Origin: a virus | DNA length: 32,315 bases | IMG/VR virus record: IMGVR_UViG_3300032286_000559 | Location: 1 to 32,315 of that record | Reading direction: 5' to 3' (one strand) | Shown: in pieces, positions 1,478 through 9,673 of the stretch | Layout: each line of letters starts with the position of its first letter | Numbering within the stretch: the first letter of the stretch is position 1 | Position numbers and translations under genes: made by a program | The notes under the pieces: generated by a model | Database searches by the model: none | What the model was told of the DNA's origin: nothing | The model's input: only the letters and a program-made list of their open reading frames with translations

Positions 1478-3889
1478 ATGGCAGATTACAGCGAGATTTT
1501 TAATCAATATCTCAACAATAGATTTAATCAGGCTGAGCCTCAAATGACAGCTGGGTCACAAGATCTCAGCACAGGTACTATGGTTCCTCCAGCAGTGGGT
1601 CCAACCATTGCCGCCAGTCAAGGACAACAACCCGCCAATCCACTCAATCAAGTGCCAGGTGCAGTTGCTCCACAAACCATGGAACAACCATCCATGGCGC
1701 AGACAGCAATGGCACAACCGCCCATGGCGCAGACAGCAATGGCACAACCACCCATGGCGCAGCCCGCAGTTCCTGTTACAGGTGCAGTCAATCCTGATTA
1801 TGCCTCATATATTGGCAAGAATGAAAGTGGAAACAATGCCAACATTGGATATCACAATCCCACACTAGGCACAGCATATGGCCAATACGGTATCACTGCT
1901 CCGGCCTACAAAGATATACAAAGAACAGACCCATATTTTGCTGGCAAAGATATCACCAGTTTATCTGCAGAAGATCAAAAACGAGCGTTGGATGTGTTTA
2001 CTGCCAACAGCGCCAAAGCCCTACAAAATTATGGTATTGAACCAACCCAGGGCAACTTGGCTGGTGCTCATTTCCTAGGTCCAAAAGGTTTAAATGATTA
2101 TCTAACCAAAGGTTATATCAGTCCAGCGGCAGCACAGGCCAATGGTGGTGAAGCAAGAGTGCGTCATATCGTTGATCAGAGATTGAAGTTCAATCCAGCT
2201 GCTGCCAGCGGTGCCACCAATCAAGCAATCACTCCAGAGCAAGCCGCTACACAACCAGGTCCTGGCGTGCCAACCTATGCCGGTGTTCCAGAACAGACCA
2301 AAATAGAAGCATTGCAAACCAAATACGATCAACTGAACAAAGATGATCCTATTGCTATCATGGCATTGACCCGGGATGAAAATCCTGCTATTGCCAGTGC
2401 AGCCAAAGCCAAAGCATATGATCTACTCAAAACTGGCAACATGACACTGGATGCAAAATCCAAAGTTGATGATGCATTGGCAAATGGTCAGATTCCCAAA
2501 TACAATGAAAAAACAGAAGAAGGCAGTTATATCAAGGCCTATCTGTTTGCTCGTCTAGGATTGAATGATTTGGCATTGCAAGAACAACAGAAGATTTCAC
2601 CAACAAAACAAACAATGGGTGTGATGCTGGGTGACCAACACTATGCAGCCACGTTTGCCAAGGATGGCCAACTTTTGTATGCCTATGATGAAGATGGCAA
2701 CAAGGTAAATGACAAAACCCTGGCCAAACTAGCGGCTAACTCTTATAATCCCAAAAATGCACAACAACATGCACAAGTGTATGCTGATCCAACAGGCAAG
2801 GTCAAAGGCACATTTGTGCTTGAAACTCGTCCAGGCGGTATGCCAGTATACAAAGAAGTCAGCACTGGTAGATTGGCCACAGGCAATGAAGCAGCTAACC
2901 TAAAAGCACAAGGCGTACAAGGTTCATTAGAATATCAACAACAGCAACAGAATATGAAAAATCAAGGTCAACTTGATGTTCATAGAGCCAAACTTGAAAC
3001 AAGCCTAAAATATATTCCTGCACAAGAGCATAACAAGTTTATTAGCAAGTTCAACGCTGAAAATGGAACCAATTTTGCATTGATGTCAGGCCCGGGTGGC
3101 AAAGAAGAATTGGTAGGTGGAACTGTGGCAACAGCTCCAACTGCCATGCCAACCGCACAACCAACCGTACCAGCCATGGCCGCTCCTGTAGCACAATCTG
3201 TAGCACCTGCAGTTCCTGGCGCACAACCTGCAACAGCACCTGGTGCAATACCCGGAGCAACCGCAGTGCGTCCAGCCAGCGATTTCGCAACACCTGCCGC
3301 TTACAAAGCATATCTTGAAGCCAAGAAAGTGCAAGACAAAGATCTGGCTGAAGGTGTTGCCAAACTACAACTTGGATTGCCACAGTATGAAGCCAATGCT
3401 GAAAATATCTTGAATACCATCAAAGATGTAGTTGGTACCAAAGAAAAACCAGCTGAAGGATTTGAAGACAGTGTGGGTATCAAAGGATGGTCATCTGCGT
3501 TTGGATTGATGGATAAACCATTGCCAAACACAGCAGCTCGTAACTGGCGTGCCAAGTATGATCAACTGATGGGTCAAGAGTTTTTGGATGCGTTTAATCA
3601 ACTGAGAGGTGCTGGTGCTATCAGTAACCAAGAAGGAGCCACTGCTACCAAGGCTCGTGCTGCTCTCAGTGATCCCGGTATCAGCGAAGAAGCTTTCCGC
3701 AAAAATGCCAAGATACTTGAAGACACAGTCAAGAAAGGTGTTGATAGACAACGGGCACTTGTTGGATTATCTCCCTTGTATCCTGAAGTGTCTATGGGTG
3801 CCAAATCCGCAACTGCTGCCGCACAACAAGAAAAAACTATTGGCGGCGTGACTTATGTGTTTGATGGCACGGGATGGAAAAAGAAATAA
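1478..3889 (+). CDS. Internal virion protein with SLT-type lytic transglycosylase motif
   Basis: This 803-residue protein starts with a Pro/Gln/Met-rich linker (residues 20-100, including a tandem MAQTAMAQPP repeat). A lysozyme-like domain follows at about 105-235. The motif YIGKNESGNN at 111-120 contains the likely catalytic Glu116, followed by GTAYGQYGIT, matching the ESG...GxxQ pattern of SLT transglycosylases. The remaining ~550 residues are helical and charged with another Ala/Pro linker near 550-600. The arrangement matches podovirus ejection proteins (T7 gp16, P22 gp4-type muramidase role) that open the cell wall during DNA entry. The start is supported by AAGGAAG 6 bases upstream. No other cell-wall hydrolase was recognised, so it could also be the only lytic enzyme. 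Confidence 0.72.
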   Translation: MADYSEIFNQYLNNRFNQAEPQMTAGSQDLSTGTMVPPAVGPTIAASQGQQPANPLNQVPGAVAPQTMEQPSMAQTAMAQPPMAQTAMAQPPMAQPAVPVTGAVNPDYASYIGKNESGNNANIGYHNPTLGTAYGQYGITAPAYKDIQRTDPYFAGKDITSLSAEDQKRALDVFTANSAKALQNYGIEPTQGNLAGAHFLGPKGLNDYLTKGYISPAAAQANGGEARVRHIVDQRLKFNPAAASGATNQAITPEQAATQPGPGVPTYAGVPEQTKIEALQTKYDQLNKDDPIAIMALTRDENPAIASAAKAKAYDLLKTGNMTLDAKSKVDDALANGQIPKYNEKTEEGSYIKAYLFARLGLNDLALQEQQKISPTKQTMGVMLGDQHYAATFAKDGQLLYAYDEDGNKVNDKTLAKLAANSYNPKNAQQHAQVYADPTGKVKGTFVLETRPGGMPVYKEVSTGRLATGNEAANLKAQGVQGSLEYQQQQQNMKNQGQLDVHRAKLETSLKYIPAQEHNKFISKFNAENGTNFALMSGPGGKEELVGGTVATAPTAMPTAQPTVPAMAAPVAQSVAPAVPGAQPATAPGAIPGATAVRPASDFATPAAYKAYLEAKKVQDKDLAEGVAKLQLGLPQYEANAENILNTIKDVVGTKEKPAEGFEDSVGIKGWSSAFGLMDKPLPNTAARNWRAKYDQLMGQEFLDAFNQLRGAGAISNQEGATATKARAALSDPGISEEAFRKNAKILEDTVKKGVDRQRALVGLSPLYPEVSMGAKSATAAAQQEKTIGGVTYVFDGTGWKKK
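1694..1760 (+). repeat. 30-bp tandem repeat in coding sequence
   Basis: A 30-bp unit starting ATGGCGCAGACAGCAATGGC occurs twice almost exactly (1694 and 1724) with a partial third copy at 1754. It encodes the ten-residue MAQTAMAQPP linker repeat upstream of the transglycosylase domain. Copy number could vary between isolates without shifting the frame. Confidence 0.85.
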
Positions 3890-4896
3890 TGGATGAATAC
3901 ATCACAGATCCTGAATTATTAAAACAGCTAAATGGCGTTGCTGAAACAGCACCTGCGCCTGTGGCACCGCCCGCAGCTGAATCTGGGTATATAACAGATC
4001 CAGCATTATTAAATCAGTTGAATGCCCCTACAGGTGCTGTGGCTCCTGGTGATATCACTGCAGGTCCTGCAGGATATGCGGCTCCTGCCTTAACTGGAGC
4101 GGCCTATGGTGTAGAAACTGGATTGCCACAACTGGCACAAACTGTCAAAGGTGCAGTGAGTCCAGTAGTAGCAGGTGCCGGCAACTATCTAAAAAATCCA
4201 ATGAACATATTAACTGACGTGGCATTGACCCATATGGGTGCTCCGCCAGTTGCTGGTATGGCCAAACTATATGATGCTTACAAGGGTGTAAAACAAGTGG
4301 CTGGTAATCTTAATGAGGCATTAAGTAAACTTCCTGAACAAACATTGGCAAAAATTAAACCAGCAGGTGATTATCTCAGCAATGCGTTATTATCAAAAGA
4401 TATAAATGCATTGGATGATGCTATAAAACTTAAAGGTGCTGGGCAGGCCATCAAAGAACTTCAGTTACCAACTTATCTAAAAGATATTCCAGAAGCAAAA
4501 CAAGCACTTAATGAAATAAAAGGAGCTTTTCCTGGCACTATGGGCAAGATTGGAGCAGTGGCAGGTCCGTTGGTTCGCGGAGCAAGTCGTGTGTTGGGTC
4601 CAGCAGGTATGGCCATGGACATATATGATGCCGCAAAATATGCACAAGAAGCCGGATTGGGTCAAAGACTAGCACAGGGCGAAGGTGCAAGAGGCATGCA
4701 GGCATTCCAAAATCTAAACAATCAAAACGTGTCAGGCTACATGCTGAGTCCTGTAGAAGCCAAAAACGTGCTGGCTTCAGGAGATGAGCGTACAATAAAC
4801 ATGTATGGCGGTCGTCAGAGATTAGAAGGTATTGTTTCTGCACCCAACGCCATAAACAGTGGTTTTACAAATCAACTAAATACTTTGTCAAGATAA
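3889..4896 (+). CDS. Putative ejection protein with paired YITDPxLLxQLN motifs
   Basis: I start this gene at the ATG at 3889, which overlaps the upstream stop (TAATG), rather than at an in-frame ATG 15 bases earlier that lacks a ribosome-binding site. The 335-residue product carries two near-identical short motifs at the N-terminus, YITDPELLKQLN (about 4-15) and YITDPALLNQLN (about 35-46). Ala/Gly-rich hydrophobic stretches and amphipathic helices follow. Short DPxLLxQL motifs recur in phage ejection proteins and may dock partner proteins. Tight coupling to the transglycosylase gene supports a role in the same internal core or ejection complex. There is no enzymatic motif. Confidence 0.5.
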   Translation: MDEYITDPELLKQLNGVAETAPAPVAPPAAESGYITDPALLNQLNAPTGAVAPGDITAGPAGYAAPALTGAAYGVETGLPQLAQTVKGAVSPVVAGAGNYLKNPMNILTDVALTHMGAPPVAGMAKLYDAYKGVKQVAGNLNEALSKLPEQTLAKIKPAGDYLSNALLSKDINALDDAIKLKGAGQAIKELQLPTYLKDIPEAKQALNEIKGAFPGTMGKIGAVAGPLVRGASRVLGPAGMAMDIYDAAKYAQEAGLGQRLAQGEGARGMQAFQNLNNQNVSGYMLSPVEAKNVLASGDERTINMYGGRQRLEGIVSAPNAINSGFTNQLNTLSR

Positions 4897-4905
4897 GGAA
4901 CAGAA

Positions 4906-5346
4906 ATGGAAATGGTAGAACAAGCATTAACCAATGTATTCAACAGTAACTTTTTGTGTTATTACAAAAGTCACGCAGCACATGTCAATATAGTAGGCAG
5001 AAACTTTTACTCAGATCACAAGCTATTACAGAAGATTTATGAAGATTTACAAGGGGAAATTGACACAATTGGCGAGCTTTTGAGGTCAATTGATGCCTAT
5101 TTTCCTACCACTATGTCAACACCTATGATGAGTGACACTATTGACAATTTGACTCCGGACTATGGAGATGGACTAGATTATCTACAACAGATTTATGATG
5201 ATCTAGAAGTGTTGATTGAAGTACATTTAGAGCTGGAAGATGTAACACAAAACGAACGTGGCTATAATCACTTGGCCAACTACGCACAAGATCGCGTCCG
5301 CATTCTAAAAAGGTTCTGCTGGATGCTTCGTGCCACCTTAAATTAA
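4906..5346 (+). CDS. Dps-like ferritin-fold protein with intact ferroxidase residues
   Basis: The 146-residue protein matches the Dps family over its first ~65 residues: YKSHAAHVNIVGRNFYSDHK aligns with the family's KTHNFHWNVTGPNFHSLHK. The ferroxidase ligands keep exact Dps spacing: His26, His38 (12 apart), Asp53 (15 further) and Glu57 (4 further). The Trp after the first His is Val27, and the extra Asp ligand found in many Dps proteins is Gln42. There is no Lys-rich N-terminal DNA-binding tail. Family members oxidise and store iron as 12-mers and protect DNA from peroxide. AAGGAAC upstream supports the ATG at 4906. It lies between ejection-protein genes and a small membrane protein, so it is probably expressed late. 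Assembly and DNA binding are inferred. Confidence 0.72.
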   Translation: MEMVEQALTNVFNSNFLCYYKSHAAHVNIVGRNFYSDHKLLQKIYEDLQGEIDTIGELLRSIDAYFPTTMSTPMMSDTIDNLTPDYGDGLDYLQQIYDDLEVLIEVHLELEDVTQNERGYNHLANYAQDRVRILKRFCWMLRATLN

Positions 5347-5347
5347 T

Positions 5348-5599
5348 ATGTCAAATATCATGAGTACAATGCCAACTGTCAATAGCGAAAAAACAAACTT
5401 GGAGTTACACGTGGATCTATGTGCAGAACGTTACAAAGAACTTGATGAAAAAGTAACTGTGGTGCATGCCAAGATAGATGTGCTTGCCGCAAAGATCAAC
5501 GAGTTCAATGCCAATGTGACCAAAGTTGTGGTAACCACAGCAGGCACCATAGTGGTAGCAGTGATCTCGTTGATTGGTGTTATATTCACCAAGTTTTAA
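5348..5599 (+). CDS. Small coiled-coil protein with C-terminal membrane segment, possible holin
   Basis: The 83-residue protein has a charged, heptad-like helix (about 20-55: ERYKELDEKVTVVHAKIDVL and on) followed by one hydrophobic segment (about 58-80: VVVTTAGTIVVAVISLIGVI) ending in TKF. This coiled coil plus C-terminal anchor layout resembles XhlA/hemolysin-type phage proteins and some holins, but there is no decisive motif. It begins 2 bases after the Dps-like gene and ends by overlapping the convergent minus-strand gene by 4 bases. The start is ambiguous (ATGs at 5348 and 5360) with no strong ribosome-binding site, so translational coupling is likely. A lysis role is a guess from topology and position. 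Confidence 0.5.
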   Translation: MSNIMSTMPTVNSEKTNLELHVDLCAERYKELDEKVTVVHAKIDVLAAKINEFNANVTKVVVTTAGTIVVAVISLIGVIFTKF

Positions 5600-6063
5600 T
5601 CCGTATACGCATAACCAGGTTTTCCTTGGCTCACATAGTTTTGTAGTGTGCTTTTGTTCATGCCCATGATCCTAGCGGCTTCAGCAATACTGTTGTAATG
5701 GCCTGTGGGTGTGCGGAATCCTTGATTTTGACGAGCTCTGCGTCTTTTGGGTTTGTCTTCATCCACCAGTTGTGATAGTGCTTCAGCCCGTTCTGCCGCA
5801 GCAAATGCAAGTTCCACTTCCTCATCTGTCATGTCTTCCATGTCCGCATCTTTCACATAGGTCTGGAACCGGTTGCTGTCATACCGGGCAATCTGGTCTT
5901 CCAAATACAACAAGCTGTTGATCCAACAATCCGCTTGGGCTCTATGTGTCTCACTCAACTGATCGTATTTGATATTGATATCAATCAGATCTTTCAATGT
6001 GGCCAGAGTGGTTTTGGCCTGTGTGTATGTAAACTGCTCTACTTGTTCTGCTGTTAGGTTCAT
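5596..6063 (-). CDS. HTH/NUMOD1-like DNA-binding protein, only minus-strand gene
   Basis: The 155-residue product is mostly helical and acidic in its first 110 residues, then has a basic patch (KRRRARQ). The C-terminal module TPTGHYNSIAEAARIMGMNK continues into STLQNYV, the pattern of NUMOD1-type helix-turn-helix motifs found in phage endonucleases and DNA-binding proteins. AGGAAAC precedes the ATG. A perfect sigma70 promoter (6099-6127) reads into it with a leader of about 29 bases, so it is probably expressed immediately on infection. Its divergent position beside the plus-strand early promoters suggests a regulator, but no nuclease catalytic motif or known repressor fold is visible. It is convergent with, and overlaps, the gene ending at 5599. 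Confidence 0.6.
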   Translation of the reverse strand: MNLTAEQVEQFTYTQAKTTLATLKDLIDINIKYDQLSETHRAQADCWINSLLYLEDQIARYDSNRFQTYVKDADMEDMTDEEVELAFAAAERAEALSQLVDEDKPKRRRARQNQGFRTPTGHYNSIAEAARIMGMNKSTLQNYVSQGKPGYAYTD

Positions 6064-6098: not shown

Positions 6099-6127
6099 AT
6101 TATATAGTCTATTTAGCATTTTGTCAA
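6099..6127 (-). promoter_or_regulatory. Perfect sigma70 promoter for the minus-strand gene
   Basis: Read on the minus strand, TTGACA (6122-6127) and TATAAT (6099-6104) are separated by exactly 17 bases, identical to the bacterial consensus. Transcription should start near 6092 and run into the gene at 6063. The -35 box is 26 bases from that of the divergent plus-strand promoter. Confidence 0.85.
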
Positions 6128-6153: not shown

Positions 6154-6182
6154 TTGACAAGGGGTTTTATTTTGTGTATAAT
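6154..6182 (+). promoter_or_regulatory. Perfect sigma70 promoter driving the small RNA cassette
   Basis: TTGACA (6154-6159), a 17-base spacer and TATAAT (6177-6182) match consensus exactly. The expected start at about 6188-6190 coincides with an ATG at 6190, so any protein made from it would be leaderless. A terminator at 6339-6371 should end the transcript after roughly 185 bases. Confidence 0.85.
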
Positions 6183-6189
6183 AAATACA

Positions 6190-6309
6190 ATGCAGAACAA
6201 GGAATCTCATTTTGTTTCTCCAAGCTCTATTGTGATTACTTTTAACCTTGTTTGGCATCTTGTTATTGCGTTATTCCTAAAATGTATAGATACTCTCCTG
6301 GCAAGGTGA
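6190..6309 (+). CDS. Possible leaderless 39-residue membrane peptide
   Basis: The ATG coincides with the expected transcription start of the 6154-6182 promoter, so translation would have to be leaderless. The peptide begins MQNKESHF, has a hydrophobic stretch (SIVITFNLVWHLVIALFL, about residues 13-30) and ends KCIDTLLAR. It overlaps the helices of the candidate small RNA. No family recognised. The alternative is that this frame is chance and the transcript is non-coding. Confidence 0.2.
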   Translation: MQNKESHFVSPSSIVITFNLVWHLVIALFLKCIDTLLAR

Positions 6310-6338
6310 AATCAACACAACCAATAACAAGTTTTTCA

Positions 6339-6371
6339 AAGCCCAGTTAGTGCAATGCTAATTGGGCTTTT
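6339..6371 (+). terminator. Rho-independent terminator of the small transcript
   Basis: AAGCCCAGTTAG (6339-6350) pairs with CTAATTGGGCTT (6358-6369) with one G-U pair, around a 7-base loop, followed by TTCCTTTTCC. It separates the small RNA cassette from the next promoter at 6387. Confidence 0.8.
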
Positions 6372-6386
6372 CCTTTTCCAAATCAA

Positions 6387-6415
6387 TTGACAAACAGTTT
6401 TTAGATCATTATACT
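6387..6415 (+). promoter_or_regulatory. Near-consensus sigma70 promoter for the early gene block
   Basis: TTGACA (6387-6392), a 17-base spacer and TATACT (6410-6415). The expected start near 6422 gives a leader of about 97 bases to the ATG at 6519. The spacer is almost entirely filled by one arm of a 16-bp inverted repeat, suggesting an operator. Confidence 0.8.
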
Positions 6416-6480
6416 AAATACAACTGAAGTAAACCTTGCCGCAACAACGAGTATCTTGAACAGAGATCTAAAAACTGTTT
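6392..6480. repeat. Perfect 16-bp inverted repeat straddling the early promoter
   Basis: AAACAGTTTTTAGATC (6392-6407) is exactly the reverse complement of GATCTAAAAACTGTTT (6465-6480); the arms are 57 bases apart. The first arm lies between the -35 and -10 boxes, the second about 45-60 bases into the transcript. Because the first arm is upstream of the start, the pair cannot form a hairpin in that transcript, so paired protein-binding sites are more likely than an RNA structure. Confidence 0.8.
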
Positions 6481-6518
6481 GGTAATATCGCACCCAGCGA
6501 TAACATTTAGGAACCATT

Positions 6519-7229
6519 ATGAGTATGATTGAACAAATAAACACCCGCTTACAGAGCGGAAATAATATTAAACATTTAACACTAAACACTAAACATTTAA
6601 ACACTAAACATTTAAACACTAATACACTAGATTTGCCCTCAGGCGAATCAAGTGACTCATTAAGGCTTACGCCTTCTGGTGGCCTCGCTCCGCTCTCTGC
6701 TTCGCCTTGCTCGCAGCCAGGTGAGGTCATTTGTTCTGGGGAGGTAATTCCCGCGTTGGTAAAATCAGATTTCCAATACATCGCAGTGAGTTTAAAAACA
6801 CAGACCAAAGAAGAACGGCTTGAGGTCAATATAGATTTTAAATTGCAAAACAGCAAAGCATTTAATAAGTTGGTATTCAATCTTGTTGGATGGAATCGCC
6901 GCAGAGAGTTTTTTGAAAATATCAAAGAAATCGCAGATTGGACAGGATATCAATCCGCATATGCACAACAAACCAAAACAGATTTTATTGGCAAAGGTAG
7001 ACCAAGAGCAAAACAAAGAAAAGGATCAGTGCATCGCAGTCCAATCAGAGAAGAAACTGCAATGTTGGTATCCTCTGAAGGTGCTTTGATATGTCATCTG
7101 TGGATTGAGGATGCTTATTTTATTTTGCCATTTGATCCATGGAGTGACGCAAATAAACTATTTTGTGCCAAAGCTGAATATGTGAATAATCCAGGAAGCA
7201 CGAGAATCAAAAGAGGAGGATGGTTATGA
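6519..7229 (+). CDS. Early protein of unknown function with odd repeat-bearing N-terminus
   Basis: The 236-residue protein has two parts. Residues ~17-35 are an (N)TKHL repeat encoded by 15-bp tandem DNA repeats. Residues ~38-75 come from a G+C-rich patch (about 6660-6740) unlike the surrounding DNA. The rest (about 78-236) looks like an ordinary globular domain, with KAFNKLVFNLVGWNRRREFF near 113-132, a basic GRPRAKQRKG segment near 159-168 and an aromatic C-terminal part. No family is recognised. AGGA six bases upstream supports the ATG, and the gene is the first after the early promoter at 6387. It overlaps the next gene by 4 bases (ATGA), so both are probably made together. The low-complexity N-terminus could be a recent insertion or an untranslated origin-like region if a later start is used. 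Confidence 0.6.
   Translation: MSMIEQINTRLQSGNNIKHLTLNTKHLNTKHLNTNTLDLPSGESSDSLRLTPSGGLAPLSASPCSQPGEVICSGEVIPALVKSDFQYIAVSLKTQTKEERLEVNIDFKLQNSKAFNKLVFNLVGWNRRREFFENIKEIADWTGYQSAYAQQTKTDFIGKGRPRAKQRKGSVHRSPIREETAMLVSSEGALICHLWIEDAYFILPFDPWSDANKLFCAKAEYVNNPGSTRIKRGGWL
6569..6626 (+). repeat. 15-bp iteron-like tandem repeats
   Basis: TAAACATTTAAACAC occurs exactly at 6590 and 6605, with a shortened copy TAAACATTTAACAC at 6569, a fragment TAAACAC at 6583 and a degenerate TAATACAC at 6619. The array is A/T-rich, sits just after the early promoter and is followed by a G+C-rich patch. It is in frame within the gene at 6519. Iteron-type binding or an origin role is possible but not shown. Confidence 0.75.
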
Positions 7230-7813: not shown

Positions 7814-7842
7814 CTTGACAAGAATGATAAATAAAAGTATAA
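7814..7842 (+). promoter_or_regulatory. Perfect sigma70 promoter for the second early unit
   Basis: TTGACA (7814-7819), a 17-base spacer and TATAAT (7837-7842), identical to consensus. The spacer contains GATAAATAAAAG, a form of the ATAAATAAA box seen elsewhere. Expected start is about 7849, leaving a leader of about 16 bases with AAAGGA before the ATG at 7865. Confidence 0.85.
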
Positions 7843-7864
7843 TTGAACAAGCAAAGGAACAGCA

Positions 7865-9152: not shown

Positions 9153-9414
9153 CGAATTATGGAACACAGTAACTGGTTTTGGCGATCGCTATGCACAACA
9201 ACAGTTCCATCCCCAAAACTTTGAAGCCGCACAACAGCATGTGGTCAATCAACAACAGGCCCAATACAACAACATATTGTCACAAGCCGCACAACAACAC
9301 TTGCCACCCAAATGGGTATTTGCAGGCCAAGCCATGACACTCACAGACTTTGCCGTCAAAGTGTATGGTGATACGCCACAAGCCACAGCATTCATATTAC
9401 GACACGGAGAATGA
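9145..9414 (+). CDS. Small Gln-rich protein of unknown function
   Basis: AAAGGA at 9134-9139 points to the ATG at 9145, which overlaps the preceding stop. The 89-residue product is rich in Gln and Ala in its first 55 residues and ends with MTLTDFAVKVYGDTPQATAF, weakly reminiscent of the tail-protein-X/LysM-like pattern (…A…YGD…). That similarity is too slight to name it. It is followed 1 base later by the GroES-like gene. Confidence 0.5.
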   Translation: MFNELWNTVTGFGDRYAQQQFHPQNFEAAQQHVVNQQQAQYNNILSQAAQQHLPPKWVFAGQAMTLTDFAVKVYGDTPQATAFILRHGE

Positions 9415-9415
9415 A

Positions 9416-9673
9416 ATGATACAAGCATTAGGAACAAAACTGGTAGTAACAAGAACAGAAAGAGAACAAACAACAACTTCAGGCATCATCATCAGCAATC
9501 TGCAAGAGCAGAATCCCACTGCTAGGATTGTGAGCCAAGGTGCGGATGTCACATTAAACTGCAAACCAGGTGATCAAGTGGTGATCAGTTGGCCATCAAC
9601 AGCAGAAACCCGGCATGAAGGAACCACCTATTACATAGTGGACCAGACAGGTGTATTTGGAGTGATACCGTGA
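9416..9673 (+). CDS. GroES-like co-chaperonin
   Basis: The 85-residue product matches the GroES fold throughout. IQALGTKLVVTR at the N-terminus aligns with the GroES first strand. The mobile-loop segment REQTTTSGIIIS (about 16-27) has the hydrophobic tripeptide (I24-I26) that docks on GroEL. NPTARIVSQG aligns with the GExxxVG strand, KPGDQVVIS with VGDxVIF, and the C-terminus ends in GVFGVIP, like DILAIVE. The roof loop is short, making it smaller than bacterial GroES (~97) and T4 gp31 (111). Phage co-chaperonins replace host GroES to fold bulky capsid protein in the GroEL cage. The ATG at 9416 follows GGAGA; upstream in-frame codons from 9350 lie inside the previous gene. Confidence 0.85.
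   Translation: MIQALGTKLVVTRTEREQTTTSGIIISNLQEQNPTARIVSQGADVTLNCKPGDQVVISWPSTAETRHEGTTYYIVDQTGVFGVIP

Follow-up and report, generated by a model that had tools for sequence, protein, structure and literature searches.

The locus considered here raises the question of what a phage would make from a short segment that stands in front of an early gene and is enclosed by a promoter and a terminator of its own, and on what such a product would act. The window, by which we mean the whole stretch of DNA analysed, is an IMG/VR virus record of 32,315 bases with an SU10-like portal and a terminase, and the phage is of an aquatic type. Judged by terminase, the closest phage record (51%) is a metagenome-derived genome of an unclassified podovirus; a phage nucleotide search with the window sequence gave no match and scans of GTDB genomes by terminase returned distant phages only. 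The genome also carries genes for a ferritin/Dps-like protein (4906-5346) and a GroES-like co-chaperonin (9350-9673).

The cassette and its relatives

The preliminary description read the locus as a promoter-to-terminator cassette with two additional helices before the terminator and without a ribosome-binding site. These elements are all found: the promoter and the long-stemmed terminator are both present (Table 1), stems A and B precede the latter and are supported by covariation, and no ribosome-binding site lies 5' of the sole ATG frame (39 codons, starting at 6190). The segment 6189-6375 folds at -50.5 kcal/mol, compared to -33.6 +/- 4.1 kcal/mol for 200 dinucleotide shuffles (z -4.15, 0/200 as stable). 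Judging from the consensus sites, we infer that a host sigma-70-type promoter would make an RNA of about 180 nt ending at its own terminator. The very high output at the start of infection that the preliminary description proposed would likewise derive from the consensus promoter. Two other promoters with 12/12 consensus positions occur in the window, one on the minus strand (6099-6127), directed leftward toward the gene 5596-6063 and back to back with the RNA promoter, the other, as a third such site, on the plus strand (7815-7843).

Table 1. Position of the RNA cassette, its proposed pairing blocks and the neighbouring gene in the window
Feature	Position	Strand	Details
RNA promoter, TTGACA-17-TATAAT	6154..6182	+	12/12 consensus; start expected at ~6189
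Small RNA, ~180 nt (stem A, stem B, hairpin C/terminator)	6189..6375	+	fold, covariation, covariance model matches
Stem A and loop	6191..6257	+	6191-6202 pairs with 6246-6257: 3 pairs, one mismatch, 8 pairs
Stem B, closing the putative antisense loop	6259..6331	+	6259-6268 pairs with 6322-6331, 10 pairs
Putative antisense block 2, UUCCUAAA	6274..6281	+	complements Shine-Dalgarno region 6506-6513, UUUAGGAA
Putative antisense middle block, AGAUACUC	6288..6295	+	complements leader 6449-6456
Putative antisense block 1, UGGCAAGGU	6299..6307	+	complements leader 6433-6441, ACCUUGCCG; 9 bp, one G-U
Hairpin C/terminator	6338..6370	+	15-pair stem, then T-rich tail; apical loop U-GCAAU-G
Second promoter, TTGACA-17-TATACT, for the target mRNA	6387..6415	+	11/12
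Target mRNA leader	6422..6518	+	UUGCCGC 6436-6442; Shine-Dalgarno AGGA within 6506-6513
Proposed target: early gene, 236 aa	6519..7229	+	76% identical homologue in L002-L004

Related phage contigs carry, at the equivalent early locus, five full, diverged relatives of the RNA and one partial relative. Searching for homologues of the gene 6519-7229 led to L002-L004, which form a single lineage (76% protein identity) and hold the same cassette in the upstream region; the L004 contig is covered at greater length by L120. The terminase led to L115 and L130, whose early region contains a strongly diverged version of the cassette, L176 was reached via an anchor on another early protein, and the partial relative, L127, comprises the first 43 bases of the RNA at a contig end. 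A covariance model built from the window and L120 only matched L115 (E 0.001) and L130 (E 0.05), the second stem of which is bulged and was left unaligned by the model, and subsequently brought up L297 (E 0.0008), a lineage not met before. L176 did not emerge from the model independently; it is backed by its anatomy and its pairing, and is the least certain member of the family. A consensus-like promoter stands at the same place in L120, L115 and L130, and a weaker one in L176.

Further searches were carried out with the model and with patterns. Over whole records the covariance model gave no match, known members being missed likewise. The scan with the loop-A pattern (72 loci) returned nothing beyond the known family and that with the loop-B pattern returned L002-L004-type contigs and 33 other loci. 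The scan for promoter plus stem (120 loci, mostly phage tmRNA genes with a like promoter) added no member to the known family; phage tmRNA genes, recognised by eye (L185, L189, L191, L204, L210 and others), share with the RNA the promoter-and-start pattern TTGACA..TATAAATAA..TGTAG. The exact terminator pattern had no match in IMG/VR. Hairpins with the GCAAU pentaloop of hairpin C recur in related phages (L112, 7456, minus strand; L300, 6898, plus strand) and were ruled out as family members, being ordinary terminators of coding regions; GCAAU may therefore be a favoured terminator loop and not a part of the RNA function.

Compensatory change in the helices and the fate of the 39-codon frame

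The structure is conserved in the family and is under selection. With the stems placed by hand in six lineages, 63 of the 66 pairs of stem A are canonical and 9 of its 11 positions show compensatory change; stem B has 41 of 42 canonical pairs and compensatory change at all seven positions (7/7), and in hairpin C the pairs are canonical throughout (30/30), with compensatory change at 4 of 5 positions. In the alignment of five lineages, which was fitted to the covariance model and thus leans toward structure, but with which the hand-placed stems agree, paired cells amount to 94.5%, compared to 34-52% with partners in slid registers, and both sides have changed at 20 of the 29 pairs, a level reached by none of 500 shuffles.

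The 39-codon frame is cut after a single codon (ATG TAG) in L120, L130 and L127, and a small protein gene was ruled out because the frame is not kept there. As the helices are maintained by compensatory change and the internal frame is dead in relatives, the product should act as RNA. Rfam 15 gave 0 matches at the gathering threshold in the whole window; at a relaxed threshold nothing convincing appeared in the window, the sub-threshold matches being at chance level by score. The earlier suggestion of an undescribed structured phage small RNA has thereby gained strong support from the compensatory changes in all three helices, from the lack of an Rfam match and from the cassette in relatives, where the helices are retained and the frame is interrupted.

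Complementarity to the leader of the neighbouring gene

The mRNA of an early gene starts from a second promoter behind the terminator in the window, L120, L297, L115 and L130; in L176, the proposed target is the next gene but one, and the intervening small gene has its own consensus promoter. All six lineages have the leader motif UUGCCGC near the 5' end of this mRNA, and the complement of UUGCC(GC) sits in the apical part of the second hairpin of the RNA. The gene itself differs by lineage: it encodes the 236-aa protein in the window and L120 (no Pfam or PHROGs match), a 335-aa protein in L115 and L297, a different short protein in L130 and a GIY-YIG-like nuclease, assigned by eye, in L176. 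RNA and leader seem to persist as a unit in front of a changing gene. For the protein of about 335 aa (L115, 1963-2961, minus strand; L297, 4835-5851, plus strand; 49% identity between both) no convincing PHROGs or PDB match was obtained; its motifs DI.CAAPTL..Q and LL.HDGWTS resemble, by eye, motifs A and C of palm-domain polymerases. In the window, a 16-base inverted repeat (AAACAGTTTTTAGATC / GATCTAAAAACTGTTT, 6391-6407 and 6463-6479) links the spacer of the second promoter with the leader.

Beyond the window (Table 1), block 1 pairs as CGGCA-GGCUG with CAGCC(U)UGCCG in L120, as GCGGCAA with UUGCCGC in L115 and L130, where both 7-mers lie in predicted hairpin loops, as UUAGCGGCAA with UUGCCGCUAA in L176 and as GGCAAGGCU with AGCCUUGCC in L297. 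The last of these was predicted beforehand and then found after the covariance model search; it is the only true prediction, the pairing in the window, L120, L115, L130 and L176 having been noticed post hoc. Block 2 pairs over the ribosome-binding site or the start codon, and no motif is common to it among the lineages: UUCUUUAAUUGUUG with CAACAAUUAAAGGA in L120 (14 bp), UUUAAUAUCAU with AUGAUAUUAAG in L297 (11 bp), UUAAUGUAAUUCUC with GAGAAUUAUGUUAA in L115 (14 bp) and GUCAUAU with AUAUGAC in L130, whereas in L176 block 1 is continued across the Shine-Dalgarno sequence, and the two sites are adjacent. The antisense loop is colinear with the leader in the window, L120 and L297; the second block of L115 and L130 is located in the single strand after stem B. 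The pairing letters thus vary from lineage to lineage, although the core UUGCC:GGCAA never does, and covariation in that part comes from the flanks only.

With the leader UUGCCGC unchanged in 6/6 lineages and the RNA side changing, the leader motif may be under a second constraint, and UUGCCGC and GCGGCAA could be a binding site for a protein, in DNA or RNA, present in both transcripts rather than two pairing partners. We regard such an explanation as very improbable, given that the flanks pair in a lineage-specific manner and that the Shine-Dalgarno block, without any common motif, is nevertheless complementary in most lineages.

As an interrupted colinear duplex, RNA and leader reach -27.8 kcal/mol in the window (shuffled-leader mean -16.6), -43.0 kcal/mol in L120 (mean -23.0) and -50.2 kcal/mol in L297 (mean -24.8), with p 0.001 in each case; for L115 and L176 a single colinear duplex was not significant and was rejected, the two sites being arranged otherwise. 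Interaction energies, calculated as cofold minus separate folds and compared with 200 shuffled leaders (p floor 0.005), were -10.6 kcal/mol in the window (p 0.015), -22.2 in L120 (0.005), -25.0 in L297 (0.005), -17.0 in L115 (0.005), -10.3 in L130 (0.015) and -14.4 in L176 (0.005), the means for shuffled leaders ranging from -3.6 to -6.9 kcal/mol across the six lineages. The cofolds place pairing on the Shine-Dalgarno sequence or the start codon in all six, and for five of the six leaders none of the other five RNAs surpasses the cognate one. When the gene-start regions of a contig are compared, the target takes first place in L120, L297 and L115, and in L176 no gene does better; in the window two other gene starts score higher, which leaves the target third, and in L130 it is about sixth. 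L130 is weak altogether, with two matches of 7 bp each and duplex p values of 0.04 and 0.2. Elsewhere in the contigs, chance also produces contiguous matches of 14-18 nt; as chance complementarity extends to 14 bases or more, it is the position of the pairing and its recurrence from lineage to lineage that carry the argument, and not its length in any one genome.

In each lineage, the complementarity of the RNA extends to the translation start of the neighbouring gene, which makes a built-in antisense brake its most likely function. We estimate at roughly three in four the probability that it acts in trans on the early gene next to it on the downstream side and represses translation of that gene. 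Stem A and hairpin C/terminator would protect the ends of the RNA and stem B would present the large loop, which, being exposed, might pair first with UUGCC(GC) at the 5' end of the neighbouring leader; the duplex would then zip over the Shine-Dalgarno sequence, block ribosome binding and thereby translation.

The same complementarity could also operate in cis, if transcripts reading through from the first promoter folded the antisense loop onto the leader and hid the Shine-Dalgarno sequence, so that only transcripts from the second promoter were translated. The two halves share a strand and are separated by 60-240 nt, and either arrangement would show this complementarity; what makes action in cis unlikely is the strong terminator and second promoter that intervene in the window, L120, L297, L115 and L130, as well as the small gene with its own consensus promoter that separates RNA and target in L176.

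The targets named in the preliminary description, i.e. host transcripts, RNA polymerase or Hfq-like chaperones, have found no support; the complementarity points to the neighbouring early mRNA of the phage itself. In the loop of stem A, a CUCC-like anti-Shine-Dalgarno motif is kept in all lineages, and UUUUGUUUCUCCAA in three (6210-6223 in the window, and also L120 and L127), and in L120 the RNA has one 14-bp match to another ribosome-binding site of the phage; both would suit an RNA directed mainly at the host (mRNAs, RNA polymerase or a chaperone), with the leader acting as a sponge or its complementarity being secondary. Another reason would then be needed for the fact that this one neighbouring leader is matched in all six lineages, independently and in each by letters of its own, and we consider a mainly host-directed RNA improbable. 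The match in L120 concerns UCUUUCUCCACGGC, which is perfectly complementary to the ribosome-binding site (3580-3593) of a second early gene (3596-4426), and in the window UCUCCUGGCA of the RNA matches the ribosome-binding site of gene 9897 over 10 bp; either gene is a possible second target, but these matches could be due to chance.

If the RNA is indeed an antisense brake, its transcription side by side with the target suggests a likely role in limiting or timing production of the early protein, or else in silencing the corresponding gene of a related phage that superinfects the cell.

Known antisense RNAs and biological meaning

What is known of antisense RNAs that phages direct against their own genes comes for the most part from a small number of temperate model phages. 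P22 sar RNA and lambda OOP RNA lower translation or stability of phage mRNA; they are encoded on the opposite strand, overlap their target and are perfectly complementary to it, whereas the present RNA comes from the same strand and pairs imperfectly. CopA/CopT and RNAI are plasmid antisense RNAs, likewise overlapping and of opposite strand, which control replication, and the loop-to-loop recognition near the mRNA 5' end is a feature that the present RNA would share with them (the 7-mers of L115 and L130 in predicted loops).

The closest likeness is to the C4 RNA of P1/P7, which owes its specificity to pairing of the a' loop with leader sequence further upstream and masks the ribosome-binding site with its b' loop (PMC5320573), in an operon ordered c4-icd-ant (PMC8198154). 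Like C4 (RF01695), the present RNA is a phage RNA encoded upstream of its proposed target on the same strand, with two blocks complementing a leader site and the ribosome-binding site of a downstream gene. However, C4 is about 77 nt long, is processed by RNase P from the target's own transcript and has its three stems arranged otherwise, while the present RNA has about 180 nt, another fold and, by its anatomy, its own promoter and terminator. Its proposed target genes are other than icd/ant, and among the proteins scanned neither an integrase nor a repressor was recognised. The C4 model had no match in the window at the gathering score, it listed none in the window or the L004 region at E up to 10, and six phage records searched at E up to 1 remained without a match, control genomes also giving none over the cut-off. 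Membership was therefore rejected, as the model has no match and size, transcription unit and fold differ: by analogy the RNA would work like C4, but it is not a member of that family.

From comparative sequence alone, a new structured RNA family could thus be described together with its proposed target and pairing sites, and the lineage-specific pairing is directly testable. It is conceivable, though we hold it only tentatively, that a clade of phages without recognised lysogeny genes possesses stand-alone antisense RNAs which resemble C4 and form a new family, where promoter, RNA, terminator and leader make up a transferable silencing module, whose scaffold is kept and whose antisense letters are adapted from lineage to lineage to the early gene that follows, maybe as RNA-based superinfection immunity or control of early-gene dosage. 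Should these phages be lytic, control of an early gene at the RNA level would be unusual, and it would point to just such dosage control or to immunity against superinfection.
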